From assembly GCA_020692245.1 (NCBI GenBank), contig JAIMKT010000009.1, forward strand, positions 26,926-83,878: a DNA stretch of 56,953 nucleotides, in the 5' to 3' direction. Under the pieces are notes generated by a model. It was not told where the DNA came from. It was given only the letters and a program-made list of their open reading frames with translations, and ran no database searches. The stretch comes from Microcoleus sp. GA_180221_E-2-1-MAG-45_12. Its GTDB lineage: Bacteria; Cyanobacteriota; Cyanobacteriia; Cyanobacteriales; JAAUUE01. A program made the translations under genes and the position numbers. Positions 4,181 through 44,352 of this stretch are shown here, piece after piece; position 1 is the stretch's first letter; every line of letters starts with the position of its first letter.

Positions 4181-5308
4181 TCAAACAGCGATCGCAGGGA
4201 AACCCTGTCTAACATCGCCTAACTTAACAGTTGATGCCCCAACTGCACAAATATTTCTAGCGGCATTTTCATCTCGCCCATTCACAGACTGACAGGATGG
4301 ACAACGCCACTCTCTGATAGATAAATCTAGATTTTCTAAAACATGACCACAACTAGAGCAGGTTTTAGAACTGGGATACCATCTATCAATAAATACCACC
4401 ATTTTTCCTTTCTTAGTCGCCACCCATTCTAGAATCTGGATAAATTCCCCAAAGGCTAAATCTGAGATTTTTCTTCCCCATAATCTCTGCATTCCCTTTA
4501 AACTTAAAGTCTCAAAACAGAGAATATCAAATCTATCCGTTAGTTCATGAGCTAGTTTCCAAAACCAGTCATGACGACAATGAAGGACATCTTCATATTT
4601 ACGGACTAAGTTCTTTCTAGCTTTCTCTCGATTATGTGAACCTTTAACTTTATGAGAATGTTGACTACTAGCTTGTTTGATAGCTTTCATCGCCTGTTTT
4701 AGAAATTCTGGGGATTCAATCCTTGAACCGTCAGAGCAAGTCAGGAAGGTTTTTAAGCCAAAGTCAAACCCAGCGATTCTACTCATCTCGGATTTAATAA
4801 TTGGTTCATTCCCACTGTCATCAACTACTACAAACATGAATAACTCGCCTAAAGGAGTTCTCTTGATTGTAAGAGTCTTGACATTTCCTACTATTTTTCT
4901 GGAGTTCCAGTATTGATAGACCAGATTGCCAATTCTGACTCTGTTACCCCCTAAAAATTTGTATCCTGCTTGTTTGAGAGTGAAAGATTTATATTTCTTG
5001 ACTTTCTTGAAATTAGGTGGTTTAGCTCCTTTTTTGTGTTGTTGAAAGAATAGCTGGTATCCTTTTTCAATGCGTTGACAGATATCTTGTACAGCTTGAG
5101 AACCGACTGACTGCCAGAAAGGATTTCGTTTTCTGAGTTTGGCTATATGTGCCTGAAGTTTGCTACAGTTCAAGTGTTTCCCCCACATTCGGTAGTACCG
5201 TTTATGGAGGGCAATACAATGGTTATAGATAATTCCGGCAGCGTTGATGGTTTGCTTGAGATGTCTATTCCGCTTGTGTTGATAAAGCTTGAACTTCAGG
5301 GTTTTCAT
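4181..5308 (-). CDS. tnpB: RNA-guided endonuclease TnpB (IS200/IS605 family)
   Basis: This 375-residue protein has all RuvC-like catalytic positions: Asp182 (GFDFGLKTF), Glu266 (CFETLSL) and Asp346 (NGRDENAARNI). Its zinc ribbon is intact, with Cys317/Cys320 and Cys336/Cys339. The basic N-terminal helices (MKTLKFKLYQHKRN) are typical of the family. TnpB proteins are nucleases guided by an omega-RNA transcribed from the 3' end of tnpB and the element's right end. Here that RNA would cover about 4141-4300 on the minus strand and take its guide from bases just below 4141. The frame is undisturbed, so the nuclease may still be active even though tnpA is missing. Confidence 0.9.
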   Translation of the reverse strand: MKTLKFKLYQHKRNRHLKQTINAAGIIYNHCIALHKRYYRMWGKHLNCSKLQAHIAKLRKRNPFWQSVGSQAVQDICQRIEKGYQLFFQQHKKGAKPPNFKKVKKYKSFTLKQAGYKFLGGNRVRIGNLVYQYWNSRKIVGNVKTLTIKRTPLGELFMFVVVDDSGNEPIIKSEMSRIAGFDFGLKTFLTCSDGSRIESPEFLKQAMKAIKQASSQHSHKVKGSHNREKARKNLVRKYEDVLHCRHDWFWKLAHELTDRFDILCFETLSLKGMQRLWGRKISDLAFGEFIQILEWVATKKGKMVVFIDRWYPSSKTCSSCGHVLENLDLSIREWRCPSCQSVNGRDENAARNICAVGASTVKLGDVRQGFPAIAV

Positions 5309-9165: not shown

Positions 9166-10551
9166 CTAGAAATCAGTTAAAATTCGAGCTTTTCTCAGGA
9201 CAAACTGTAGCACTGTATCTTCTCTGACGACAATATCCGCCGTGATATCCATCCCAGAATCTAGGGCATTGCGGGGATTATCTTTGAGGAAGAGCTGATC
9301 GGGAATAATCGTCACTTCAAAAAAGGGCTGGGCGGCTTCCGGGCTGGGGGCATTGGCTGGATTGGTAATATCCGCAGCGATCGACTCCACTCGACCATTA
9401 ATTGTCCCGTAATCTGGGTAAGGAAAAGCTGAAACTCGCATATTTACCTTTTGTCCCACTTCCACCCGACCAATATCTTGGGAGCTAACTCTGGCTTTGA
9501 TGACTAAATTGGCATCCTTGGGAGCGATGCGGGCGATCGGGTTATTGGGATTAATTGTCTGACCGGGGTTGCGGAGATTTAACTCCAAAATTGTCCCAGC
9601 CACAGGCGATCGAATGGTTGTTTTTTGCAGTTCTACTTCAATCTGCTGTAAATCTTTGGTATCTCGGTTAATTTGGTTTTGAATTTCTGACTGGCGTTGC
9701 AACAGGGCTTGTTTTTCCCGGTTTAGGGTGGCGATCGTGGCTTCTCCCCTAGCCTGCTCTCTGGCAATCTGTTCACTAGCAATGGTGACATTAGCATCGG
9801 TGGGATTTGCTGCTGCCCTTGCCTTTTCTAGTCTGCCCAGCGCTGCCTGCACTGCCAAGACTCGCTCATCAAACTGACTCTGGGACACCGCCCCCGCCGC
9901 CACTGCCTGCCGGAGGTTTTCCTGTTGTTGGAGGGCGATCTGATAACTTGCCTCCGCCTCCCGGAGTTCAGCACTAGTAATGGCTCCCCGTTCCGTCAGT
10001 TCCCGTTGGTTGCGATCGAGGTCTGCCCCCGCCGCCGTCATCGCCCGCCCGGTTTGGTTAGCTTCAGCCAAAATTTGACTATCAGTAAAACTAATCTGGG
10101 ATTGAATTTGGGTGATCTGGGTTTGATTTTGTTGGATGCTGTTCTGGAGTTGACTTTTTTGAATTTGTAGTCGAGTATCGCTGAGGGTCGCAATCACATC
10201 CCCTTGGTTCACTTCTTGGTTAACTTCCACTTCTAGCCTTTCCACTACCCCTTCGATCGCTGTTTGCACAATCCTAGTTTCCCCCAAGGGTCGCACCGTC
10301 CCCCCAGCCCGGAGAGTGACATTGTAGGGCGTAACCCCAGAGAGGGCGATAGCCACCCCAAAACTTCCAGCGATCACCAATCCCCCCCAAGTCAGCCAAC
10401 GACTGATCGGCGGCAAAAATTCATCGGTGGCAATTATTGGCAAATCTTCTCGGTCAAGGTCTGATTGGTTATCTAGTTGGCTATTCAAGGGTTTAATTAG
10501 GGATTTAGATTTTCTATCAATAATTCTAAAAACAATTTTAAGGGTAAGCAA
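9166..10551 (-). CDS. HlyD-family efflux periplasmic adaptor
   Basis: This 461-residue protein has one N-terminal membrane helix (about 52-72). A lipoyl-like half-motif follows (GVVERLEVEVNQEVNQGDVIATL), then a long alpha-helical coiled-coil hairpin rich in Q/N (about 130-310). The second lipoyl half (TTIRSPVAGTILEL) and a beta-barrel domain complete it. That order defines membrane-fusion proteins of ABC or type I exporters. No ATPase, permease or TolC gene adjoins it, so the partners lie elsewhere. The start is a TTG at 10551; no in-frame ATG exists upstream of the membrane helix. Confidence 0.85.
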   Translation of the reverse strand: MLTLKIVFRIIDRKSKSLIKPLNSQLDNQSDLDREDLPIIATDEFLPPISRWLTWGGLVIAGSFGVAIALSGVTPYNVTLRAGGTVRPLGETRIVQTAIEGVVERLEVEVNQEVNQGDVIATLSDTRLQIQKSQLQNSIQQNQTQITQIQSQISFTDSQILAEANQTGRAMTAAGADLDRNQRELTERGAITSAELREAEASYQIALQQQENLRQAVAAGAVSQSQFDERVLAVQAALGRLEKARAAANPTDANVTIASEQIAREQARGEATIATLNREKQALLQRQSEIQNQINRDTKDLQQIEVELQKTTIRSPVAGTILELNLRNPGQTINPNNPIARIAPKDANLVIKARVSSQDIGRVEVGQKVNMRVSAFPYPDYGTINGRVESIAADITNPANAPSPEAAQPFFEVTIIPDQLFLKDNPRNALDSGMDITADIVVREDTVLQFVLRKARILTDF

Positions 10552-18997: not shown

Positions 18998-19771
18998 TTA
19001 GGCTACTAGCATTTCTTCTGGTTGGTGGCGTAACTGCTCCATCACTTGATCTCGATAGTTTTGGAAATCATGATGCCGCTTAGTCTCTAGGGTTCGATCG
19101 CTCCCCAAGTTAATCATTAGTTCCTGCTTGATAGTGCCGGGATGGGAACTCAAAACATAGATGCGTTGCGAGAGAAATACTGCCTCCTCCACATCGTGGG
19201 TAATTAACAAAATCGTTGTCTGCGTCCGCTGCCAAACTTCCAGAAGAAACTGCTGCATCACTTCCCGAATTTGTACATCTAGCGCCCCAAAGGGTTCATC
19301 TAATAGGAGAATTTTCGGCTTAGAAGCCAAGGCTCTGGCGATCGCTACCCGTTGTCTCATCCCTCCTGATAGTTCTTGGGGCAAAGCTTGGGCAAAATTC
19401 GTTAAACCCACAACCTCTAGATAGTAACTCACGGTTTCTTGGCGGATTTTTTTAGCAACTCCCTGCAACTTCAAGCCAAATCCCACATTATCAGCCACAT
19501 TCAGCCAAGGATAAAGACTATAACGCTGAAAAACCAAACCTCGATCGGCCCCTGGCCCAATCACTGGCACACCATCCACACACACTTCCCCCAAGCTCGG
19601 CGCATCCAAACCCGCTACAATCCGCAGCAAAGTAGATTTCCCCGACCCAGAAGCCCCAACTGCCGTCACAAATTCCCCCTCCCCAATGTGCATATTAATA
19701 TCTTGGAGGGCAAGGAGTCTGCCTCTTTTTGTGAAAAATTCCTTCGATAAATTTGAGATGGTTAAGTGCAT
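18998..19771 (-). CDS. ABC transporter ATPase of the guanidine operon
   Basis: The 257-residue nucleotide-binding subunit has Walker A (GASGSGKST), signature LSGGMRQRVAIARAL and Walker B (KILLLDEPFGALD). These are the features of the nitrate/sulfonate/taurine uptake subfamily. It is the last gene of the operon that begins with gdmH, as in Synechocystis where sll1082 occupies this place. By that context it should power guanidine import. Confidence 0.9.
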   Translation of the reverse strand: MHLTISNLSKEFFTKRGRLLALQDINMHIGEGEFVTAVGASGSGKSTLLRIVAGLDAPSLGEVCVDGVPVIGPGADRGLVFQRYSLYPWLNVADNVGFGLKLQGVAKKIRQETVSYYLEVVGLTNFAQALPQELSGGMRQRVAIARALASKPKILLLDEPFGALDVQIREVMQQFLLEVWQRTQTTILLITHDVEEAVFLSQRIYVLSSHPGTIKQELMINLGSDRTLETKRHHDFQNYRDQVMEQLRHQPEEMLVA

Positions 19772-28991: not shown

Positions 28992-31586
28992 CTAATTATC
29001 AAGCTCAGGGAATGGTGAGTTTTTTCTATTCACTAACTCTATAATCTCATCAAATTCAAACTGACGGGTAAGTTTTTCCAGAACCTTCATTAAATGTGAT
29101 GCACTGGGAGGCATCTGGAGAATGAGTTGATGCATTTGCTCTAGGTCTCCTTCTACGGTAGCTTGGTGTAGTCTCGATCGCCACTCTGCCCCCATGAGTT
29201 CCAATTCGGCTGAGAGAATTTCCGAGGAGATGCGATCATCTAGATTTGTCTCCTGCAATGGATTTGCTGCTGATTCTTCATAGAGATACTGCACTCCCAA
29301 ATGCTGGGAGAGTAAATCAAAAATCATCTTTTCTGTAAAAGGTTTTCGCAAGAAATCATCAAATCCGGCAGCGGTGACTACGGCTTTTTCTTCTTCCAAA
29401 ACATGGGCAGTTAAGGCAATAATTACTGGGAATTTACCTGAGACAGAGTTATTTTCAGTTTGAGATTTAATATATTTTGTTGCTTCATAGCCATCCATTA
29501 TAGGCATTCGGATATCCATCCAAATTAAATGGGGTTGCCAAGTTTCCCAAAGCTCGATCGCATCCTGTCCGTTACGTGCTTCTCTAATCTCAAATCCTAG
29601 GGGACTCAATAACTTAACTAACAATTGCCGATTAATTGGTTTGTCATCTACGGTCAAAATTTTATAGGTAGGCTGATGGGGGGCAAGAGCCAAAACTTGT
29701 GGAGAATTTTCATTGATATCTTTCGTAATATTAGTTTCTTTGACTACGTCTGCCTGCACAAAAAATCTCAAGGTTGTTCCTTTACCGACTTCACTCTCAA
29801 CCGTAATATCTCCCCCCATTAATTGCACAAACTGCCGACTAATCACTAAACCTAAACCCGTTCCTTCCTGAGCCGATCGACCCGATTCTGTCTGAGTAAA
29901 AGCCTTAAATAACTTTGATAATTCTCTAGGGGCAATGCCCACACCTGTATCGCTAATACTAAAATTCAAAGTATAGCTTTGAGTGGTTTCATTGAGAACT
30001 GAGTTAACTTTTAAAGTCACTCTGCCTTGGGGGGTAAATTTGATTGCATTATTCAATAAATTAATTAAAACCTGACGCAATTTTATCCCATCAATATAAA
30101 CATAACGAGGTAGGCTAGGTTCTCGATCGACTACTAGCTCTAAGCCAGCTTTTTCTATTTGGAGATGAAACAAATCTTCTAGATCACCAAGCAACTGATG
30201 TAGATCAAATTCTTTTTGGTTTAGCGTAGTTACTCCCGCTTCAATCTTCGAGAAATCTAGAACATTATTAATCAATGTTAATAAATATTCCCCATTGCGA
30301 TAAATAATTCCAGCATTCTCATATTGTTCTGTCGGCAAATCTTTTTTACGAAGCATGAGTTGAGAAAACCCTAGGATCGCATTCAGAGGCGTGCGTAATT
30401 CATGACTTATATTGGCAATAAATGAACTTTTAGCCTGATTTGCAACTTCTGCTTTTTTCTTTTCGATCGCTAATTGTTGATTCATTGCTACTAACTCCGC
30501 AGTTCTGCCAATGACTCTATCCTCTAATTCATGGTTTAATCTCTTTAAATTTCTTTCTGCTTGTTGCCGCTCACTCACTGTCGCTGACAATATTAGAGTT
30601 GTTATGGTTACTACTGTCATAAATGTTTGAAGTAACAGAGTTGCCTCACCGATCGTATTTGTTCTAGCTATAAATGGCCCACTATCATAGAAATTAGATA
30701 AAATTGAAATTGTTGATACCAAAAATGTTGCAAGAATAGATGTCTTTTGACCAAATTTTAAGGTTGCCCAGATAATAAATGGTAAAGGCAAATATTCTAT
30801 AGGATAATTCGCAATATATCTATCTATTTTTGTAAAAAATATAAAGTAACTAATAAAAACTGTAAAACATAATAGGAGAAGAGGTTGTAATTTCTTGGTT
30901 ATTGATTGGAAACTAAAAAATTGCTCTTGTAGTAGCTGATTAATAGGAAATAACAATAAAATTAAGGGAGTAAACACTAATATCCCTGTGAAATTACCTA
31001 ACCAAATATTCCAGAAAATACTAACAGTATTACTCCAATTACCTTCTGAAAATAAACAAGCCAAGGGACTCCACCTATCTTCTCGCAATAAACAGACCGT
31101 TGATATCATCAAAGTTGGCTTGATTAGAGTAGAAACTATAGCTCCTAAAAATATTAGTTTAAAGATATCATTGATACGATTTAAACGACGATCAAATCGA
31201 AAACGATCTAAAAACTTGATGGCAAATATGGTTTGTAATATTTCGTACAGTAAAGGTATGAGCTTGATGATCATACTAGCGTTACTATTGCCAATATCCA
31301 AAATGGGAAATACAAAAAAGAATATAGATATTGCTAATAAATAAATAGCTAATAGTCGTTTAATTCTGATTCTAAATAATAAAGTCACTCCGAGAGCAAT
31401 ACCCGCTGGAGGCCAAACACTCAAAGCCAGACGATCGAGGGATTGTAATTTTAACCCGAAGAACATTCCTAGCAAATAAGGAACAATAAATACAAAGCTT
31501 TGAAACCAGAATTTTCTGGATAGCGATCGACTTATGGATTCTACCGTTTGTGCTAAATATCGCTGAAGTTTTTGTGTTAAATTCAT
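28992..31586 (-). CDS. MASE1-type hybrid sensor histidine kinase (copy 1)
   Basis: The 864 residues comprise an N-terminal membrane sensor of about eight helices (30-335, MASE1-like, with WPPAGIALG), a short coiled coil, and HisKA with phospho-acceptor His395 ([10 protein letters not shown]). HATPase boxes follow ([21 protein letters not shown]), then a receiver (KILTVDDKP, acceptor Asp in [11 protein letters not shown]) and a 100-residue C-terminal helical tail. No output domain is present, so it must pass phosphate to other regulators. It is 80 bp downstream of a paralogue and probably co-transcribed. The membrane part is clearly more AT-rich than the rest. Confidence 0.92.
29239..29882 (-). 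repeat. 644-bp identical direct repeat, copy in kinase 1
   Basis: Read base by base, this tract is identical to 31893-32536 (constant offset 2654). It spans the end of HATPase and the whole receiver. Outside the tract the two genes differ at many positions. The first mismatches are at 29238 and 29883. Confidence 0.92.
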
Positions 31587-31666
31587 GATCGCTATTCATG
31601 ATTAATTAATTGATGGATAACTATAAACTATTTTCAGGATATTACTAATCTCTTATTGGCAAAATT

Positions 31667-34180
31667 TCAATATTTCTCAGGTTGTAACAGTTTTATAATC
31701 TCATCAAATTCAAACTGACGGGTAAGTTTTTCTAGAACCTTCATTAAATGTGATGCACTGGGGGGGATTCGGAGAATGAGTTGATGCATTTGCTCTAGGT
31801 CTCCTTCTACCGTAGCTTGAGATAGTCTCGATCGCCATTCTGCTCCCATGAGTTCCAACTCGGATGAGATAATTTCGGCGGGGGTACGATCGTCTAGATT
31901 TGTCTCCTGCAATGGATTTGCTGCTGATTCTTCATAGAGATACTGCACTCCCAAATGCTGGGAGAGTAAATCAAAAATCATCTTTTCTGTAAAAGGTTTT
32001 CGCAAGAAATCATCAAATCCGGCAGCGGTGACTACGGCTTTTTCTTCTTCCAAAACATGGGCAGTTAAGGCAATAATTACTGGGAATTTACCTGAGACAG
32101 AGTTATTTTCAGTTTGAGATTTAATATATTTTGTTGCTTCATAGCCATCCATTATAGGCATTCGGATATCCATCCAAATTAAATGGGGTTGCCAAGTTTC
32201 CCAAAGCTCGATCGCATCCTGTCCGTTACGTGCTTCTCTAATCTCAAATCCTAGGGGACTCAATAACTTAACTAACAATTGCCGATTAATTGGTTTGTCA
32301 TCTACGGTCAAAATTTTATAGGTAGGCTGATGGGGGGCAAGAGCCAAAACTTGTGGAGAATTTTCATTGATATCTTTCGTAATATTAGTTTCTTTGACTA
32401 CGTCTGCCTGCACAAAAAATCTCAAGGTTGTTCCTTTACCGACTTCACTCTCAACCGTAATATCTCCCCCCATTAATTGCACAAACTGCCGACTAATCAC
32501 TAAACCTAAACCCGTTCCTTCCTGAGCCGATCGACCTGATTCTGTCTGAGTAAAAGCCTTAAATAACTTTGATAATTCTGTAGGGGAAATGCCCACTCCC
32601 GTGTCGACAACTCGAAAATTCAAAGTATAGCTCTGGTTGTCTTCATTCAGCTTGAAACGAACTCTTAAATTCACACTGCCTTGTGGGGTAAACTTGATGG
32701 CATTGTTTAATAAATTAATCAAAACTTGTCGTAATTTTATCCCATCAATATAAATATAACGAGGGAGATGAGGTTCTCGATCGACTACTAGCTCTAATCC
32801 TGCTTTTTCTATTTGGAGATGAAATAAATCTTCTAGATCATCTAGTAACTGATGCAAATCAAATTCTTTTTGGTTTAACGTAGTTGCTCCGGCTTCAATC
32901 TTTGAGAGGTCTAGAAGATTATTAATTAATGTCAATAAATATTCTCCATTGCGATAGATAATCCCCATGTTTTCATATTGCTCAGGCGGGAAATCTTTTT
33001 TACGAAGCATGAGTTGAGAAAATCCTAGAATCGCATTTAGAGGCGTGCGGAGTTCATGGCTCATATTAGCAATAAAGGTGCTTTTTGCTTGGTTAGCACC
33101 CTCAGCTTTAACAGCTAATTCTCTTGCCTCCGCTTCGCTTTCTTGAAGATCCCTAGTTCGTTCTAAAACTCTCTGCTCTAGTTCAGTATTAGATTTCTGA
33201 AGATGGAGTTGGGCTTGGTTATTTTCGGCAACAACTGCTAAAAATGCCATAGTTGTAATTGCCATCACTCCCATAAACAATTGCAACAATAAAAGAGAAT
33301 TACTTTCTAAGAATTTTTGGTAAAAAACACCAAACTTGTTAAGTGTCATCCATGATGCTGTCTGGGAGACAACCACAACTAGTAAAATCGTTAACCTTGT
33401 TCCAAATCTAAAGGCAGACCACAGCAATGGCGGGAAAAATAGGTATTCAATTGGTTGGTTTTTTACAAGAGTTAGATACCAAATAACTATTAAACTTACT
33501 ATAGCCATAATCACTTCCCAAGGAACCCAAGAATGAAATTTTCTCTCTCGAGACGATCGCAGCCAAGTAATAACTAAAGGCGCAAATATAAGATTCCCAA
33601 TCCCATCCCCAGTCCACCAAGACCAAAACTGACTCCCATAACTTACTTGTAAGTTTTTAATTACATAATTATGATGCCAATAGGAAAGGATACCAATATT
33701 TGCCTGAAAAATAGCTCCTGTAAACAATGAACATAAGACAAAATTTACTACATGCCGCACCTTCTGGAAAGGATAATTTGTGCCTGTAAACCACAAGATC
33801 AATGTAGCGGTAATTAATGCTCCCAAGGTTGAGCCAATACTAGCACCCAAGGGAGGTAAAAAAAGAGCTAGACTATTGTCTGCATATAGTTGATCTCTTC
33901 CGTAGAGCTTATCAGCGATAAGATTAAAAAATAAAGTTCCCAATAGAACCCCAAACCAACGCGATCGTCCCCATGCTAAAAGAAATCCCACCATGAATCC
34001 AGCACCGGGCCATAGAGGTGCAGGCTTATCTATAAGATGATAGATTAAAGCAAGTCTAGAGACAGCATTATAAGCAACAGCAATTACTAGGACATCACGC
34101 CACCAATAACCATTTTTGATATCTAAACCGAGGCGATTTAGTAACATCGGCAAATTAGTAATAGCTTTCTTGAATATCAT
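31667..34180 (-). CDS. MASE1-type hybrid sensor histidine kinase (copy 2)
   Basis: The 837-residue paralogue of the next gene has the same order: MASE1-like membrane sensor (about 25-320, LWPGAGFMVGFLL), coiled coil, HisKA with His375 (ANMSHELRTP), HATPase, receiver and C-terminal helical tail. The sensor domain is strongly diverged from copy 1 while the receiver is identical. The two kinases thus probably read different signals and feed one output. It is the first gene of the pair. Confidence 0.92.
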   Translation of the reverse strand: MIFKKAITNLPMLLNRLGLDIKNGYWWRDVLVIAVAYNAVSRLALIYHLIDKPAPLWPGAGFMVGFLLAWGRSRWFGVLLGTLFFNLIADKLYGRDQLYADNSLALFLPPLGASIGSTLGALITATLILWFTGTNYPFQKVRHVVNFVLCSLFTGAIFQANIGILSYWHHNYVIKNLQVSYGSQFWSWWTGDGIGNLIFAPLVITWLRSSRERKFHSWVPWEVIMAIVSLIVIWYLTLVKNQPIEYLFFPPLLWSAFRFGTRLTILLVVVVSQTASWMTLNKFGVFYQKFLESNSLLLLQLFMGVMAITTMAFLAVVAENNQAQLHLQKSNTELEQRVLERTRDLQESEAEARELAVKAEGANQAKSTFIANMSHELRTPLNAILGFSQLMLRKKDFPPEQYENMGIIYRNGEYLLTLINNLLDLSKIEAGATTLNQKEFDLHQLLDDLEDLFHLQIEKAGLELVVDREPHLPRYIYIDGIKLRQVLINLLNNAIKFTPQGSVNLRVRFKLNEDNQSYTLNFRVVDTGVGISPTELSKLFKAFTQTESGRSAQEGTGLGLVISRQFVQLMGGDITVESEVGKGTTLRFFVQADVVKETNITKDINENSPQVLALAPHQPTYKILTVDDKPINRQLLVKLLSPLGFEIREARNGQDAIELWETWQPHLIWMDIRMPIMDGYEATKYIKSQTENNSVSGKFPVIIALTAHVLEEEKAVVTAAGFDDFLRKPFTEKMIFDLLSQHLGVQYLYEESAANPLQETNLDDRTPAEIISSELELMGAEWRSRLSQATVEGDLEQMHQLILRIPPSASHLMKVLEKLTRQFEFDEIIKLLQPEKY
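31893..32536 (-). repeat. 644-bp identical direct repeat, copy in kinase 2
   Basis: This is the partner of 29239-29882, identical throughout by eye. A tract of perfect identity inside otherwise diverged paralogues points to recent gene conversion, and it is a substrate for deletion that would fuse the two kinases. Confidence 0.92.
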
Positions 34181-35961: not shown

Positions 35962-37437
35962 TTATTTGCAAGTGCGGACATCAGGTATTGATTGAAAAGG
36001 TGCTACAAGTTTGTACAGTTCTCTCCAGACAATTTTATAAATTTGTTCTTGACCAAGATTAAGAGCAGCCTGACCTGTCATGCCCATCGTTAACTCTGAA
36101 TTGGGGTTATCAAGTTTAATCCACACAGTAGCCGATCTTTGACTGGGATTATTGGGATTAACTTTTATTTCGTTTTCTATACGATAAATTTTTCCCTTGT
36201 ATTCAATGCCTCCATTTGGTACAAAAGTTACGTTTTCAACCTTTTGCAATTGGCAATGATCAATTTGGTCAACTTCTAATTTTGCCATCATATCATTGGG
36301 GCTGTAGTAGAAAACATCAATGGACTTAGGCAATTTTTGATCAAGATAACCTTGAATTTCTTTTAGTTCAGCAACCCCATCAAAGGGTGCGAGTAATGTT
36401 TGGGCTTCTTTTTGATCTTTCTGATAAGCCTTTTCCTTTTCTAGCTGATTAATTTTAATATCAAATTCTCTCACTTTCTGGCTAGATCGATTCAATTCTT
36501 GCTCGGCTGTATCTTGGGCTGCTCCCTTTTCAGTTACTCGATCGCTATCTTCTTGTACCCTTTTCAAAAGTTGCTCAACCGCCACACTTTTCTCGGCTTC
36601 AACTTGCAACATCTCCGCCTCTAAACTACTGATTCTCCCTTCTATTTGCGATACTTCAATCTCAATATTGATAACTGGTATCCGCCCCATACCGCCTTCG
36701 CTTTCTAACTCTTTATATTTGGCCAAAATACCTTGTTTAGATGCCAACTGAGCACCCAAACTTGACTGTTCTTGTCTGAGCTTGTTTATTTTTGCCTCAT
36801 GCACTGCCATGATTGGGGAGATAGCTAAAGCCCTCTGACTTTGTTCTAAGCTATTGACTGCACTTCTGTAACCAGAGTTGGCTTGCTCTAATTCTCTTCT
36901 CTTTGTACTTTCTTCCTCTTGAGCAGACCTTTTCTGGGATTGAGCGTCAGAAATATCATTTTCGATTTTTCTAAACTTTTCTTCCTGTTGAGGATCGACG
37001 GTAGAAATGACTACATCACCTTTTTTTAATTCTCTAGTTTCGCTAATTTCTTTGACAATGCTTCCTTGGTGGGCAGAAAGTTTTCTGACCTTGGTTGGAT
37101 CCGGATTCGGTTCGGCGGCGGCACTAATAGGCTTAATACTATAATTCAGAGGATACATCCCAATTACGGCTAACACTGCGGCGATCGAACCCACCATGAT
37201 TAGGCTATGGGGAATTTTGTTTAATACATTTTGTGTTTTACTAGAACCACCGTCACCTCCAGAGCCGCCATTTTGGGGAATGGGAAGAGTTGCTTCTGGT
37301 TGAGTTGGCAACTGAGCCGGGACAGGGAGTTTTTGGGCTGCGGGTGAACTTGTTAGGGGTTTGATCTGGTTCGGGGGGACTACCTTGAGACGAGGGGCAG
37401 GATTTTTGGGAGAGTCGATCGATTCTTGAGATTCCAT
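35962..37437 (-). CDS. HlyD-family secretion adaptor paired with an M50-like protein
   Basis: The 491 residues start with a proline-rich cytoplasmic tail of about 75 residues and a Gly/Ser linker, then one membrane helix (about 79-95). A lipoyl half-motif (GSIVKEISETRELKKGDVVIST), a long coiled-coil hairpin (about 150-345) and a beta domain with a terminal 'GMTGQAALNLG' strand follow. It is 95 bp downstream of the M50-like gene. The pairing suggests a membrane complex that exports or matures a secreted protein. No ABC ATPase or TolC is nearby. Confidence 0.85.
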   Translation of the reverse strand: MESQESIDSPKNPAPRLKVVPPNQIKPLTSSPAAQKLPVPAQLPTQPEATLPIPQNGGSGGDGGSSKTQNVLNKIPHSLIMVGSIAAVLAVIGMYPLNYSIKPISAAAEPNPDPTKVRKLSAHQGSIVKEISETRELKKGDVVISTVDPQQEEKFRKIENDISDAQSQKRSAQEEESTKRRELEQANSGYRSAVNSLEQSQRALAISPIMAVHEAKINKLRQEQSSLGAQLASKQGILAKYKELESEGGMGRIPVINIEIEVSQIEGRISSLEAEMLQVEAEKSVAVEQLLKRVQEDSDRVTEKGAAQDTAEQELNRSSQKVREFDIKINQLEKEKAYQKDQKEAQTLLAPFDGVAELKEIQGYLDQKLPKSIDVFYYSPNDMMAKLEVDQIDHCQLQKVENVTFVPNGGIEYKGKIYRIENEIKVNPNNPSQRSATVWIKLDNPNSELTMGMTGQAALNLGQEQIYKIVWRELYKLVAPFQSIPDVRTCK

Positions 37438-37532
37438 AGAATTGCACCAGATTGACAGATTAATTATTTTTAGTGAGATGAGTGTGGGCGAAAATGTAAA
37501 ATTTGGGAAATTTGCTGTGAATTTTGAGCAAA

Positions 37533-39047
37533 TTAAACACTTCTATCCTTGGGTTCTGGGAAGTAGAAGTAGATTAGCCATCCTAGAAAAAGCGTGAGTA
37601 GAAGCATAGGGATATTTTCCAGACTCCAACCCAAAAGCCGAGAAAGCAAAAAGCCAAATACTAAAATGCTGTAGGCAAGGCTAAAAGGGGCGTAGGCAAG
37701 CAAAATCCAGCGAGTTTCTTGGGGTTCATTACTGGGTTTGAAAGTGAGGAGACTGCGATAAAAATCCCTCGATCGACCCCGCAAATCTATCACTCCCGTG
37801 ATCGCCTCTAGGAAAAAATAACCATCAAACTTTGCCAAAGGGTTCATATTCCATAGCACCGTCACTAGCGCCGCCGTCATCACTAGATAACTGGTTGTGT
37901 GGAGCCAACTGGTAGGATCCGCAATTTGTAAGACCCAGAAAGCCCCCATCCAGATCAAGAATTGCACCACTAATCCCGCCCCCACCACCAAAGCACGCTG
38001 ATAGACTTTGGGCAAGAAATAGGAATCCGTAGTCAGACAGTAAGCCGTGGGCATCAAACACATAAACATCACCCCCACCTCCGGCACCTTCAGGTCTAGC
38101 TGGGGAACTTGACGAGCGTAGTGCTTGAGGGTGAAACAATGCCCCAATTCGTGGATAGTAACGATGATTAGGGAGTAAATAATAAAGGGTATTAATAGTT
38201 GTGAGCCTTGATTTTGCCAGAGCTTCTGCCCATGACTCGCCAATGTTCCGGCTTGAGAAGTTGCCAAAATTGCGCTAAAAATTAGCCCAAATACCATTAA
38301 GTAACCACTGGGACGACTCCAGAGCCAACCCAATTTGTCCACATGGCGACTCAACCAGCGATCGGGATTTGCCAAGGGTTTTTCAAAAAACAATAATTGC
38401 AAAGGATTAAACTTACCCCGCCTCTTGCCTTTACTGGGGCTAGTCCCTTGGATCATTCTATTCATCTTTAGATGCTGCCAAAGTAAGGGAAAATGGGGTT
38501 CAATTTTGGCAACTTCGGCTGGGGACATGGTTTCGAGGAATTCGATCGCCTCCTTCGCATCCTCATTCATAAACATAAAAGTGCGATCGATGGGATTCCG
38601 CAACAACCAGATATTCTCTTTTAACCACCAATGTTTATAGGGAACCCACTGTAATCCCGGCTTTAGGGGAGACTTACTAACAGCAGGGCTTACTCCGGCA
38701 GAGATGGCCTTTTCCTGATCTCCAGTATCATCAATTCCCTCATCCCCACTGTCCACAGCCAAAACTCCCATACCTACTAATTTCTCTACTAACTTGGTAA
38801 CTAAATTTGGGGGACAATCAGGAAACTTGCGGCTACAGGCTTTCTGTGTATGGCTTTGGGTATACTTGCCAACAAAACAACTCAGAGCATAGACTTCTGG
38901 CTCCGAGAGGAGATGTAATTTCCCACCTACTTGCCACATCCCTTGATTGGTCTGGCGATCAAACTTTGGCTTAGAATAATCTGTACTGATATCTGGGAGT
39001 AACCAGTCCTGATCATCGTTATCTGGTAGAGAGTAGTGAGCAAACAT
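37533..39047 (-). CDS. M50-like membrane metalloprotease (putative peptide zinc metalloprotease type)
   Basis: The 504-residue protein has a soluble N-terminal part (1-200) whose first 95 residues look like a winged-helix/PqqD-like module. About eight membrane helices follow. The zinc site is TIHELGHCF with His299, Glu300 and His303, and the second ligand motif is NMNPLAKFDGYFFLE. Such proteins sit beside HlyD adaptors in cyanobacterial and RiPP export loci. The active site is complete. The substrate is unknown, but the divergent mosaic hydrolase is the obvious candidate. Confidence 0.82.
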   Translation of the reverse strand: MFAHYSLPDNDDQDWLLPDISTDYSKPKFDRQTNQGMWQVGGKLHLLSEPEVYALSCFVGKYTQSHTQKACSRKFPDCPPNLVTKLVEKLVGMGVLAVDSGDEGIDDTGDQEKAISAGVSPAVSKSPLKPGLQWVPYKHWWLKENIWLLRNPIDRTFMFMNEDAKEAIEFLETMSPAEVAKIEPHFPLLWQHLKMNRMIQGTSPSKGKRRGKFNPLQLLFFEKPLANPDRWLSRHVDKLGWLWSRPSGYLMVFGLIFSAILATSQAGTLASHGQKLWQNQGSQLLIPFIIYSLIIVTIHELGHCFTLKHYARQVPQLDLKVPEVGVMFMCLMPTAYCLTTDSYFLPKVYQRALVVGAGLVVQFLIWMGAFWVLQIADPTSWLHTTSYLVMTAALVTVLWNMNPLAKFDGYFFLEAITGVIDLRGRSRDFYRSLLTFKPSNEPQETRWILLAYAPFSLAYSILVFGFLLSRLLGWSLENIPMLLLTLFLGWLIYFYFPEPKDRSV

Positions 39048-39185
39048 GGTAGTTGAGAAATAGTAGATTAGCTCTGAATATAGAACATGATGTTACTGTG
39101 GTCAAGTCTTTAGAAAATATCTCAAGATATCATTCTCTAAGTGATTCTATTTAATTTTCTTTGCTTTTGTAATTTTTGTATGATA

Positions 39186-39218
39186 TTTGTGTAAAGTTTG
39201 TGTAAAGTTTGTGTAAAG
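39186..39218. repeat. three perfect 11-bp tandem repeats in the divergent promoter region
   Basis: TTTGTGTAAAG occurs three times head to tail with no mismatch. Read on the minus strand it is CTTTACAC with AAA spacers, i.e. 8-bp boxes every 11 bp. This is the geometry of OmpR/PhoB-type regulator sites. The repeats lie 107-139 bp before the mosaic gene and about 140-170 bp before the M50-like gene, so they could control both. Confidence 0.8.
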
Positions 39219-39324
39219 TACTTTTAATAGCTATTTTAATGATCACTTTAATCAACTATACTTCAGCTTAAATAATTACATTTGCAATCATCGACTTACA
39301 TTAATCATCAAGTGAGGTAATTTC

Positions 39325-42300
39325 ATGGTTTGTCAGGGTCATCAACGCCAGAAAGATCATCCACGTCGTTTATTTTGTGGTTCCGGTAAAGACCAAAAAT
39401 CCCCCAGTGTTATTCCACTCGACATTGAACCTATCGAATCGTCAGAAATCCCCGCAGAAAATGATCTGTCGGAAGAGTTGGTAGAAAGCTCGATCGAGCC
39501 CAGTTCAGAATCTCCAGAACTAGAAGCGGCAGATTTCACTGCCCTAGAAGTTGCCGAAATTCCGGGAGAAGAAGCAGACTGGGATCCTCTGGCAGCAGAG
39601 GAAATCGAAGTAGAAAAAGTATTGGAAGATTTGACCAATGATAGTAGCAGCCTCACCTCTGAGCAACCTGCCGCCAACAGTCAAGAGGAAGAAACCTCCG
39701 AAGAAACAACAGAAATCACAACAGAAACTTCTAGCGCAGTAGAGCCAAGTCTAGAAGTTAGCAGTGAAGAAACTGAGTCGATCGATCCCGTTGCAGAATC
39801 TGAATTAGAAGAGGATACGATCGATCCCGTTACTGAAAATGAATCTGAACCAGAAGAAGATGCGATCGTGGCGGAAGCTGACGAAACCGATACAGATACC
39901 GAATCCAGTGAAGTAACTGATGAAGACCCAGAGGATGAAGACGCAGAAGACACCCTGGTAGATATTCCCCTGTTACTCTCAGATGTTGTTGGTGGTTTGG
40001 GAACAGTGACAGACCCCTCTGGGCAGCTATCGGTGATTTGGAAATTTGATGGGGGAGCCTACGAAGGACAAGTCGGGGTAGTTTCGACTGCTGGCTTAGA
40101 AAATTATGACCTGAACTCGATCGAGTTTATGCAAGAAGCCCTCCGCCGAGCTTTAGCAAATATTGTTGTCGATGACACTACGGAAGGGTCTGAATTTTCA
40201 GGAAATATGGGCGATGGAGACTCCAATCATGGGGAATTTACTGGGGAGAAAATTGTCCAACTCTCAGTGGGAGAGCAGTTTTTCTTTGTAGTCATCCCTA
40301 ATGGTACTTTTACCAATGTTTTAGCCAGCCTTGAAGCAGGAGAAGTCCCCACAGGCAGCATCCGTCCTCTATTTTCGCTTACAGTTGCCAACCCAGACAG
40401 CATGAATCACTTTGTGCAGGTGGTAGACCTGACTGGGAAAGGTAGTACCTTCGCCCTAGAAGATATCAGCAATGACCAGAAATCTGACTGGGATTTGAAT
40501 GACATCATTATCACTGTCAAGGGTGCAGACCTAGACGCTCCAACGGTGGGTGACTTGATCGATGCTGGGGTGATGGATCAGGAACCTTGGTGGCGAGAAG
40601 GAGAAGTCTGGAAAACCATTGTGGAATCGGTGGTTGATACCATTGCCGAAGAATACGACTTTCCCAAGGAAGACCAGCCCTTGATTGGCTTTATCGATAC
40701 CCATTTAACCCAAGGGAATCCCGACATAGATTACAGCCGAATTATCTTTGGCAAAGATTGGATTGAGAATGATAGTGATCCTACGGTGAGTAGTGAAGAA
40801 GGAGGTCACGCAGATCATAGTCATGCAACAGCTGGTGAAGGAACTCATCTAGACCATATCTTGGAAATTGTGGGAGCTACCAGAAATAACGGGGTTGGCA
40901 TCGATGGGATTAATGATGTGGCTCCTCTGTGGGTGAGCAGTGCTGTGGAATCTGGAAAGTGGGCTGATGCCTTGATAGATTTTGTGGATACGGCGATCGC
41001 TTCCAATCAACCCAACGCTGTTATTAACTTGAGTATTGACCTGACCCAAGTTAACCCTGATGGCAGTGTAACTACTCGTTATGAGTTTACTCCCCAAGAA
41101 CGGGGGGCGATCGAGTATGCCAGACAAAGCGGTGTGCTAATCGTAGCAGCAGCAGGAAATGATGGCGGAGTGATGTCAGTGTTGGGGCAAGCCTCCCAAG
41201 AGTTTGACAATATCATCACCGTCGGGGCAGCCGATGGTATGGCTAGGGCAGCTTATTCCAGCTATGGCTATGGTTTAGATATTATGGCTCCTGGTGGCTC
41301 GATCGACAATCCAATCCTTTCTAATGCTGGGGACGGTCTGGGAACAATGGCAGGAACTTCCGTCGCCACAGCCCAAGTAACCGGAGCCGCATCTCAAGTC
41401 TGGGCAGCAAATCCTGAATTAAGTTATCGCCAAGTAATCGAGATTCTCAAGGAAACTGCCACAGATATCAACACTCCCGGCTGGGATGAAGAAACCGGAA
41501 CAGGACTTTTGAACATTACAGCAGCCGTAGGTCTAGCAAAGATAACGACACCGGGAGTATATAATCCTGAATCTTTTCTGATTCCTACAACATGGGATGG
41601 ATCAGAAAATTTAGTACCTAGCGAGCGAGCTGTCAGCACTGAGTATGGAAATTATAATCCCAATGTAAGTACTAATTTCCTTAATAAAGTTAAAACTATT
41701 GGGCTAAATCTAGGTTTAACACCAGAGTATTTGATGGCAGTGATGGGGTTTGAAACAGGAGGAACCTACTCACCAAGTATCAGGAATCCAGTTAGTGGAG
41801 CAACTGGCTTGATTCAGTTCATGCCCTCCACTGCTATAGGCTTAGGAACATCTGTCAGTAAACTGGCACAGATGACAGCAATTGAGCAATTAGATTATGT
41901 TGAGAAATATCTCAGACCTTATAAGGGACGTTTTTCAACTTTAGAAGATGCTTATATGGCAGTCCTCTGGCCAGTTGCTGTAGGAAAAGGATCAAACTAT
42001 GTTCTATTCCGATCGGGTACGATTCAGTACACACAGAACAGCGGCTTAGATGCTAATCGGGATGGAGTAGTTACAGCTAGTGAAGCTGCAAATAAAGTCC
42101 GTAAATACTTACCGCCTGCATCTCTCTTTGATAGTCAACAAAACAACGGTAGCTCATCAACTTTTAGTGGAAAAGTTCAGAATGCTGGTTATGTGCAACA
42201 AGTTGGATTTGTCCGAGTTCGTTCTGGTCCAGGAACTACGGGCTATACAGAAGTAGCAAGGCTCAATCCCGGCGATACACGCCAATTTTCTGGTGAAACT

Positions 42301-43695
42301 CAAGGTCAATGGGTTGCTGATCCAAATATGCAGGGAGGAGGTAGCAGTATTTGGTATCGTCTTGCCGATGGCAGTGGTTATGTCTCTGGTCAATATATCG
42401 AAAAACTTAGTTTAGACAGAACTGTTGGCTATGATGGCACATCAACTCATCAAACTTATATCAATACCTTCAATCGCATTGGTGGTGAAGCTGTTTTGGG
42501 TTTACCACTTAATAATGTTCACCCTTGGGAAAATGGTTACGCTCAAGACTTCCCCGGTCGCTTGGATGGTAAAGGGGCAATTATGAAGTCTAATACCAAC
42601 GACAACTCTTATTGGGTTGGTGGTGATTTGTGGACTACATTTTTAGGAGCAGGTGGTGCTGGCGGAATCTTGCAGTATCCTACCTCTGATCGCTATGCTA
42701 CTAACAGTGGTTGGCGACAAAACTTTCAAGGTGGGGCAATCCTCAAATCATCCAAAGGAATTTTCCCGCTTTATGGAGGTATTGGTAGTCACTACTTAAA
42801 TAATGAGAATGGCGAGAAAGGACGGCTCGGCTTTCCTACTAGCGGAGAAGTTAGTATTGGTGGTGGGGTAATTATCCAAAACTTCGAGAATGGTCGGATC
42901 ATTTATGGCGCTGGACCAACTCGGACAGAAATGAATGGTGGGCAATCAATCACTATTAATAGTTACATAGTTAGTGGGAACTTTTACCCAGTTTTCAAAA
43001 ACTATCAAGGCACACTTGGTAATCCAATCTCAGGAGTAACTAATCACTCTAGCGGTGTAACTTATCAATTATTCCAAAATGGTTCCATTGTCAGTAGCAA
43101 AAATGGTACGTTCCCTCTATATGGTTCCGTTCGTCAAACTTACTTAAATAATGGTGGCTTAAACGGATTCCTTGGTGCGCCAACAAGTGCAGAAATTGGG
43201 ATGGGTAATGGTGTCACTAAACAAACCTTTGAAGGTGGCTACATTATCTGGAACGGACGTACAGCAACTGCTTATCGAACTGGAACTAGTCAACCTACCC
43301 CAGTTACTGGTAGCTGGCAAAGTCCTCTTGCTAACTATAGAATTACAGGCACTTTTACCGGTGCTTACCCAAACCATCAAGGTATGGATTTAGCTGCTAA
43401 TTTAGGAACTCCAGTCGAAGCGGCTAAAAGTGGTACTGTTTCATTTGTTGGTTGGTATCCATCTAATTTACATAATGGAGGGTATGGTCTATACGTTAAA
43501 ATTAATCATGGCAATGGTGAAGAAACTGTTTATGCTCATCTATCACAAACTCTTGTAACAGTGGGACAGCAAGTAACTGCGGACACAGTTATTGGTAAGG
43601 TAGGAAGCACCGGAAACTCTACTGGACCTCATTTACATTTTGAAGTGCGTGTTAATGGCTTGCCAAGAAATCCACAAAATTACATTCAATTTTGA
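39325..43695 (+). CDS. mosaic protein: acidic region, DUF4114, S8 protease, lytic transglycosylase, SH3, LGFP-like repeats, M23 peptidase
   Basis: This 1456-residue protein has, in order: a basic, Cys-containing leader without Sec features (1-25); a strongly acidic low-complexity region (about 32-210); a DUF4114-like domain (about 218-402); and a subtilisin-like domain (about 450-740; Asp458, probable His508, Asn612, Ser679). Then come an SLT-like transglycosylase (about 784-930, Glu810) holding an EF-hand-type loop (Asp909-Glu920), an SH3 domain (961-1030), repeats of LGFP type (1033-1315), and an M23 metallopeptidase (His1351, Asp1355, His1436, His1438). Two different peptidoglycan hydrolases in one chain suggest attack on, or remodelling of, cell walls. 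GAGG precedes the ATG. A terminator follows 66 bp after the stop. Confidence 0.85.
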
Positions 43696-43760
43696 TTAAT
43701 ATTAGTACTCATCTTCTGAACTATTGATTCAAACTAGAGAGGGAAATAATCAATATTTGA

Positions 43761-43795
43761 GCGATCGAGATTCTTCAGAGTTCGATCGCTTTTTT
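43761..43795 (+). terminator. intrinsic terminator built from HIP1-related sequence
   Basis: AGCGATCGA (43760-43768) pairs with TCGATCGCT (43782-43790) around a 13-nt loop, followed by a run of T to 43795. It would end the mosaic hydrolase transcript and lies before the antitoxin start. Confidence 0.8.
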
Positions 43796-43858
43796 ATTGG
43801 GGCGGGGATACGATCGCTTAGAATAATACATATTCATAATGTCTTAGCCCAATTTCCT

Positions 43859-44071
43859 ATGCTAACCTCAACTTTTGATAGTATTCTGGATGCGATCGAA
43901 ACCCTATCTCTAGAAGAGCAAACCTCTTTACTAACCATCATGCACCGGAGAATTAGTGATCGTCGCCGTGCCGAAATTGCGGCTAACATTGCCCAAGGAA
44001 GACAAGACTATCAATCTGGAAATGTTTTTAGAGGCACAGTGGAAGAAGCGATCGAGGAACTAAACCGTTGA
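43859..44071 (+). CDS. antitoxin of a type II toxin-antitoxin pair
   Basis: From the ATG at 43859 the protein has 70 residues, mostly helical and charged (FDSILDAIETLSLEEQTSLL, RRRAEIAANIAQ). It ends GTVEEAIEELNR, like many short cyanobacterial antitoxins that precede RelE/ParE toxins. A longer frame from 43724 would run through the terminator and is rejected. The stop TGA overlaps the toxin start. Confidence 0.75.
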   Translation: MLTSTFDSILDAIETLSLEEQTSLLTIMHRRISDRRRAEIAANIAQGRQDYQSGNVFRGTVEEAIEELNR

Positions 44072-44352
44072 AAGTTATCATTTTTGCCAACTCATTCAAA
44101 CGTGCCTACAAATCCCTGATCCGCAAACATCCAGAACTAAAATCTAAAACCGAAAATACTTTAAGGCTTTTAGCAGAAAACCCCTTTAATCCATCACTAC
44201 AAACCCACAAACTCAAAGGTCAATTAGCTGGTTCTTGGGCTTGCAGTGTAGAGTATGACTGCCGGATTGTGTTTGATTTTATTGAAAATTCAGAGTCGGG
44301 AGATGAAGAAATTCTCTTGCTCGATATTGGTAGTCATGATGAGGTTTATTAA
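44068..44352 (+). CDS. RelE/ParE-superfamily toxin (YafQ-like)
   Basis: The 94-residue basic protein has FKRAYKSLIRKHPELK, a central 'NPFNPSLQTHKLKGQLAGSW' loop and a C-terminal DCRIVFDF...LLLDIGSHDEVY strand pattern, with the final His-Asp near Tyr94. This is the mRNA-interferase toxin fold. It starts at a TTG that overlaps the antitoxin stop (TTGA), so translation is probably coupled. The frame is intact. Confidence 0.82.
   Translation: MKVIIFANSFKRAYKSLIRKHPELKSKTENTLRLLAENPFNPSLQTHKLKGQLAGSWACSVEYDCRIVFDFIENSESGDEEILLLDIGSHDEVY

Follow-up and report, generated by a model that had tools for sequence, protein, structure and literature searches.

The stretch of DNA analysed here, hereafter the window, comprises 56,953 nucleotides of contig JAIMKT010000009.1 (positions 26,926 to 83,878, forward strand) from Microcoleus sp. 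GA_180221_E-2-1-MAG-45_12 (assembly GCA_020692245.1), a 4.2-Mb cyanobacterial draft genome. Three of its genes encode an HlyD-type periplasmic adaptor, an M50-type intramembrane metalloprotease and a giant protein, for which an earlier, sequence-only reading had proposed an export system. All three proved to be intact open reading frames where that reading had placed them, with the giant gene divergent from the M50 gene across 277 bp. The locus is bounded by an FrhB-like gene on one side and by a toxin-antitoxin pair on the other, and the genome is close to that of Coleofasciculaceae cyanobacterium SM2_1_6 (87% M50 identity). The features of the locus, in window coordinates and with reference to a congener, are the following.

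35962..37437 (-): HlyD-type periplasmic adaptor, 491 residues; open reading frame, weak HlyD_D23 match (19.9 bits), one transmembrane segment, beside or fused to M50 in relatives
35962..37146 (-): periplasmic portion of the adaptor, hypervariable; 30% identical to its congener counterpart, DNA unalignable before ~37175
37147..37203 (-): single transmembrane segment of the adaptor, residues 79-97; hydropathy maximum 2.22
37372..37392 (-): RLKVVPP, a conserved motif in the adaptor's N-terminal tail; present in 47 of 55 HlyD proteins of M50 loci
37533..39047 (-): M50-type intramembrane metalloprotease, 504 residues; NF041824 at E=5.9e-28, below cut-off, PF02163 sub-threshold, HExxH plus NPL..FD
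37818..37844 (-): NPLAKFDGY motif with the putative third zinc ligand D408; N402, P403, F407, D408 and Y410 invariant in 13 relatives
38139..38153 (-): HExxH zinc motif HELGH, residues 299-303; H299, E300 and H303 invariant
38442..38678 (-): predicted RRE/PqqD-type domain 2 of M50, residues ~124-202, the one retained by short M50 proteins; 6jx3 at Z 8.5, 5v1u at Z 8.2
38754..39005 (-): predicted RRE/PqqD-type domain 1 of M50, residues ~15-98; βββ-ααα fold in the AlphaFold2 model, PqqD 5sxy at Foldseek probability 0.99, Z 6.8
39048..39324 (no strand): divergent intergenic region, part of the block with 82.6% DNA identity to the congener
39325..43695 (+): giant effector candidate, 1456 residues; open reading frame and domain matches
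39364..39429 (+): leader in a genus-specific 22-residue form, residues 14-35; also carried by a second giant of the same genome (locus L053) and by two congener giants; a diverged version of FILEPILTPSG
39415..39969 (+): acidic tract, residues 31-215; 70 acidic residues, 1 basic
40267..40524 (+): DUF4114; PF13448, E=2.1e-13
40678..41505 (+): subtilase S8 domain; PF00082, E=3.7e-26, catalytic motifs present
41540..43695 (+): exchangeable C-terminal module with SLT, SH3, LGFP and M23; congener DNA homology stops at ~41540, and the congener protein ends in Lipase_3
41710..41859 (+): SLT-type lytic transglycosylase segment; PF01464 at 18.7 bits, sub-threshold, FETGG and GLIQ motifs
42211..42402 (+): SH3_3; E=5e-5, below cut-off
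43015..43167 (+): LGFP repeat, the best of two; PF08310, E=6.7e-22
43372..43674 (+): M23 endopeptidase; PF01551, E=1.3e-32

The giant had been described as lacking a Sec signal and as carrying an acidic tract, and both descriptions hold; its N-terminus is basic and without a hydrophobic core (maximum KD15 0.67). Of the domains that had been assigned to it, S8, LGFP and M23 are confirmed, with the Asp, His and Ser motifs of the former and the HxxxD and HxH motifs of the latter protease all in place, whereas SLT and SH3 remain below their cut-offs and DUF4114 had been overlooked. When tested alone, the SLT segment scored 18.7 bits against a cut-off of 21.3, with its motifs kept. The cysteines attributed to the leader exist (C3 and C18 are the only ones in the protein), but the congener has Tyr at both positions, and a role in lipidation or tethering was therefore dropped.

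Since the bodies of such giants differ (S8/DUF4114, LysM or Ig/dockerin), the leader is their common denominator. In most giants, it has the consensus F-I-L-E-x-I-x-T-P-S, lies ~30 residues from the start, and is preceded by a Lys/Arg-rich stretch and followed by an acidic one. Across 60 distinct proteins, L, E/D, T/S and P are invariant, some of these positions having been required by the search pattern itself; the lone giant missing the pattern is cut at its 5' end. A Sec-like hydrophobic core was seen in none of 58 leaders. In the genus of the window, a diverged leader of similar form is shared by four giants of two genomes. One of them is the second leader-bearing S8 giant of the window's genome (G000:C67:16272-19862, which is L053 4273-7863), and this gene is followed by one for a 135-residue protein (L053 7924-8331). 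The 135-residue family recurs together with a similar giant ending in L165, L086 and L180, and also occurs within the giants of L208, L207 and L057. The LEPR-XLL model NF012209 was considered as a home for the cyanobacterial leader and dropped, as it matched none of six leaders.

The M50 protein has the HExxH motif and the distal Asp that are expected in the transmembrane helices of an M50/site-2 protease, and H299, E300, H303 and D408 are invariant in 13 relatives. PF02163 scores 18.6 bits on the window protein against a cut-off of 27.2, and it matches 13 of 13 relatives (best E=3.3e-9); the daptide protease model NF041824 gives 98.1 bits, far under its curated cut-off of 300. Because a Pfam search of the N-terminal part returned no PqqD match, its fold was taken from structure prediction. 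AlphaFold2 models of 60 such N-domains consist of two successive βββ-ααα folds (mean pLDDT 82), and Foldseek and VIA-align group both of these with PqqD and with RiPP recognition elements (RREs; RiPP, ribosomally synthesized and post-translationally modified peptide) in complex with leaders. The matches 6jx3 (Z 8.5) and 5v1u (Z 8.2) are RREs solved with leader peptides, and PqqD 5sxy follows at Z 6.8; a Z near 8 is weak by itself, but RREs dominate the top of both structure-match lists. As modelled, the M50 N-terminus is thus a tandem of two RRE/PqqD-type leader-binding folds. The HExxH motif and the PqqD-type fold had been correctly recognized before, but the latter had been taken for a single domain. 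Domain 1 is duplicated in some M50 proteins and encoded by a separate small gene in others. The modelled tandem and the leader shared by the giants support the earlier proposal that the pair may recognize the giant. Near the M50 gene of an HlyD-less branch (L181, L187, L188, L204, L207, L208), a small PEP-CTERM-like exported protein is encoded; in Microcoleus and relatives, a different exported protein of ~230 residues is found.

The distribution of the gene set was surveyed in 386 genomes of the phylum, in 60 relatives and in 80 further M50 loci on GTDB contigs. The M50 gene is present in 15 of the 60 relatives and in 28 of the 386 genomes, 23 of these inside the class. The sequence-only reading had made its proposal depend on a recurring neighborhood, and the proposal survives on this point because M50, HlyD and giant are grouped together across cyanobacterial families; they also co-occur genome-wide. 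For 41 of the 80 M50 loci, the flanks reach 5 kb or more in both directions; a leader-bearing or S8 giant is present in 30 of these and HlyD in 26, and the divergent order of the giant relative to M50-HlyD is retained even in class-level relatives (L218, L219). M50-bearing genomes are where giants with S8 and DUF4114 are mostly found. Of the 386 genomes, 14 have both M50 and a leader (E<=1e-3), 1 has a leader alone, 9 have M50 alone and 362 have neither (Fisher P=8e-19, taking genomes as independent and ignoring phylogeny). The one genome with a leader only contains a decayed relic, interrupted by stops, in which the leader is followed by just the end of an S8 domain. Within a single genus, the M50-bearing genomes G002, G229, G236 and G384 have leaders, whereas the M50-less G033 has none. 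No close M50 relative outside Cyanobacteria was among the 80 GTDB loci kept, for which the query patterns favor close relatives. In L147, L148, L174 and L090, a gene for a SurA/parvulin-type (PpiC) isomerase, possibly an accessory chaperone, lies beside or near the giant gene.

Behind its conserved N-terminus, the giant carries an interchangeable C-terminal cassette. In the Nostoc and Microcoleus sets, identity over the first 350 residues is mostly 80-95% (only ~70% in those Nostoc pairs that include L188), whereas the final 150 are unrelated in most pairs. The endings include M23, SLT, CHAP, amidase plus CHAP, GH19-like, Lipase_3, a colicin-E3-type RNase (PF09000) and Ntox24. At the window's locus, the DNA is 82.6% identical to that of the congener over 37175-41540, a block that starts at the adaptor N-tail, spans M50 and closes with S8; past ~41540, the congener diverges wholly, and its giant ends in a class 3 lipase and not in SLT/M23. 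Such polymorphism favors the antibacterial effector role suggested earlier for the giant, which from these sequences would be a candidate toxin. Directly 3' of the E3-type ending (DUF6980, L203), of the L205 ending and of a lipase-type ending, a small open reading frame is found where a polymorphic toxin system would have its immunity gene. In distant cyanobacteria (L061, L152, L181, L187, L188, L205), a gene of ~350 codons with a DALR anticodon-binding-like domain follows the giant or lies near it; it was rejected as specific immunity because it stays when the ending changes.

The adaptor was identified by the weak HlyD_D23 match in the window and by RND_mfp (5.8e-18) in a fused homolog. In five loci (L136, L140, L158, L166, L177), M50 and HlyD form a single polypeptide. 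The [LF][KR]VVPP motif ([LF][KR]xVxP-type) of the adaptor's N-tail is a possible docking site. Compared with the adjoining protease, the adaptor diverges fast: its periplasmic part is 30% identical between window and congener against 87% for M50, and the corresponding values for HlyD and M50 are 44% and 91% in L179/L159 and 51% and 88% in L143/L144. These sequence comparisons suggest recombination or diversifying selection on the periplasmic domain. Adaptor and cargo change together at the window's locus, but strict co-inheritance was dropped as a rule because L148 and L152 retain 88% adaptor identity despite unrelated-looking endings. A second, typical HlyD_3/HlyD_D23 adaptor is encoded elsewhere in the window (9166-10551, minus strand), near a PucC-type transporter gene and apparently without relation to the M50 locus.

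More distant M50 homologs are present on proteobacterial plasmids as PqqD/RRE-M50-HlyD fusions. Their operons also hold genes for TolC and additional adaptors, and several include a giant; no annotated ATP-binding cassette (ABC) gene was found in them. Three of five proteobacterial loci have a short LE(P/S/A)R motif at the N-terminus of the adjacent giant (LESRQLFDGA in E. coli, LEPRVVYDAS in Burkholderia, LEARYMFDAA in Variovorax), a likeness to the cyanobacterial leader that is one of form only, without statistical support. One of these giants scores 16.5 bits against NF012209, whose cut-off is 17. The operons suggest a wider ABC-less pathway. On a Variovorax plasmid (CP063167.1, 19413-68132), a 48.7-kb gene (~16,000 codons) adjoins those for TolC, adaptors and the M50-HlyD protein.

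Probably, the gene set of these filamentous cyanobacteria constitutes a leader-guided, ABC-less pathway for the export and maturation of a polymorphic antibacterial effector. The giant would be synthesized without Sec signal, and its leader would bind to the RRE tandem of M50. M50 and HlyD, sometimes fused, would work as a single unit of inner membrane and periplasm, which takes hold of the giant, probably removes the leader and hands the protein to a TolC-type channel in the outer membrane. The likely task of the conserved middle part, i.e., DUF4114 and S8, is Ca-dependent folding, display at the surface or self-processing, and the C-terminus would be an exchangeable warhead, in this copy (SLT, SH3, LGFP and M23) directed against the peptidoglycan of competitors. 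Several points weigh against this proposal. It rests on computational analysis throughout, and the association of leader and M50 was calculated without regard to phylogeny. No ATPase that would power transport is known for the M50-HlyD set. In some loci, M50 and HlyD are intact without a giant inside the flank, and the short M50 proteins of Microcoleus and relatives have one RRE, the second domain, and no adjacent HlyD. The leader model does not detect the window's own diverged leader. Finally, as in the sequence-only reading, no immunity gene was recognized in the window for the M23/SLT cargo; the genes directly 3' of the giant (43724-44352, plus strand), for a 115-residue protein and a RelE/YafQ-type toxin, probably form an ordinary type II toxin-antitoxin pair.

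The absence of an energy source from the gene set also fits an explanation in which the pair merely removes the leader or sheds the giant, while transport proceeds via an unlinked type-1 ABC system or another route. M50 enzymes are proteases, the nearest NCBIfam models describe RiPP maturation proteases, and an ABC-type gene is present elsewhere in the window (18998-19771). However, just 1 of the 80 M50 loci has an ABC ATPase no farther than 6 kb away (a motif search that addresses linkage only), HlyD adjoins or is fused to M50, the C-termini of the giants are too variable to carry a C-terminal signal, and the proteobacterial M50-HlyD proteins are accompanied by TolC and adaptors, with no ABC gene annotated. 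Maturation without export is therefore considered unlikely. Even less probable is the deployment of a hydrolase acting on the producer's own wall in gliding, hormogonium formation or filament breakage, which had been offered earlier as an alternative. The SLT and M23 domains of the window's cargo would suit such remodeling, as would the LysM and LGFP wall-binding repeats that are common among the giants, but it is disfavored because the same leader-bearing bodies also end in an E3-type rRNase, Ntox24, lipase or GH19-like domain; unrelated endings on near-identical N-termini and the patchy distribution, with 23 genomes of the class among the 386 surveyed, argue in the same direction. Equally improbable in our estimate is the secretion of adhesins or matrix exoproteins with incidental C-terminal enzymes. 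DUF4114, LGFP, Big/dockerin and tectonin domains and the adhesin-like DUF4347/Ig giants of proteobacteria are consistent with surface proteins, but the enzymatic endings are typical of antibacterial effectors and are exchanged as cassettes. A chance neighborhood of a generic protease, adaptor and hydrolase, although every part belongs to a large family, is contradicted by recurrence and co-occurrence and can practically be discarded.

The closest concept to leader-guided effector export is that of the PrsW-dependent polymorphic toxins, for which a membrane-embedded peptidase was proposed as conduit and processor (PMC3482391). Both have a conserved N-terminal trafficking part and exchangeable C-terminal toxins; here, however, the peptidase is an M50 protein of its own that carries RRE domains and, as proposed, acts with an HlyD adaptor on cargo with a leader motif, and the main text of the survey (PMC3482391) makes no mention of M50. 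The proteobacterial operons of LEPR-XLL-like/DUF4347 giants also combine RRE/PqqD-M50 with HlyD (fused there) and a giant with a short LE-type motif, again with no annotated ABC gene, but their cargo is adhesin-like, TolC and extra adaptors are part of the operon, and the motif is related in form only. With the RiPP maturation proteases (daptide_HExxH, NF041824; LiaK/YydH, NF058609), the M50 protein shares the HExxH membrane protease domain, but its scores are far under the cut-offs, and the substrates would be proteins of ~600 to 4400 residues instead of short peptides. Like type I secretion (ABC-HlyD-TolC), the system has an HlyD adaptor and cargo without Sec signal; unlike it, no ABC ATPase is linked and the conserved signal is N-terminal. 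Tandem RRE-like folds before an enzyme domain are also known from the cyanobactin enzymes ThcOx and TruD, and ThcOx aligns over both domains, but here the folds precede a membrane protease, and the leader motif is different.

No published description of the M50-HlyD-giant set or of its proteobacterial counterpart was found in the open-access literature, and this system of the polymorphic toxin kind stands a fair chance of representing a secretion pathway not described before. A broader proposal, nearly but not quite evenly balanced in our estimate, is that of an unreported pathway of Cyanobacteria and Proteobacteria, in which an RRE-bearing M50 protein would substitute for the type I ABC transporter, read an LE-type leader, and export and trim giants with HlyD and TolC; the cyanobacterial branch would deliver polymorphic antibacterial effectors and have a hypervariable periplasmic adaptor domain. 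If so, a further delivery route would be added to those listed for polymorphic toxins, the RRE fold would serve the export of very large proteins and not the modification of small peptides, and the LEPR-XLL-like giant operons of proteobacteria would gain a possible function. Filamentous cyanobacteria would then offer a readily testable antagonism system.

Elsewhere in the window, an IS605 OrfB/Cas12f-like TNB transposon-type gene is located at 4181-5308 (minus strand), and two MASE1 hybrid histidine kinases with response-regulator domains are encoded in succession at 28992-34180 (minus strand).

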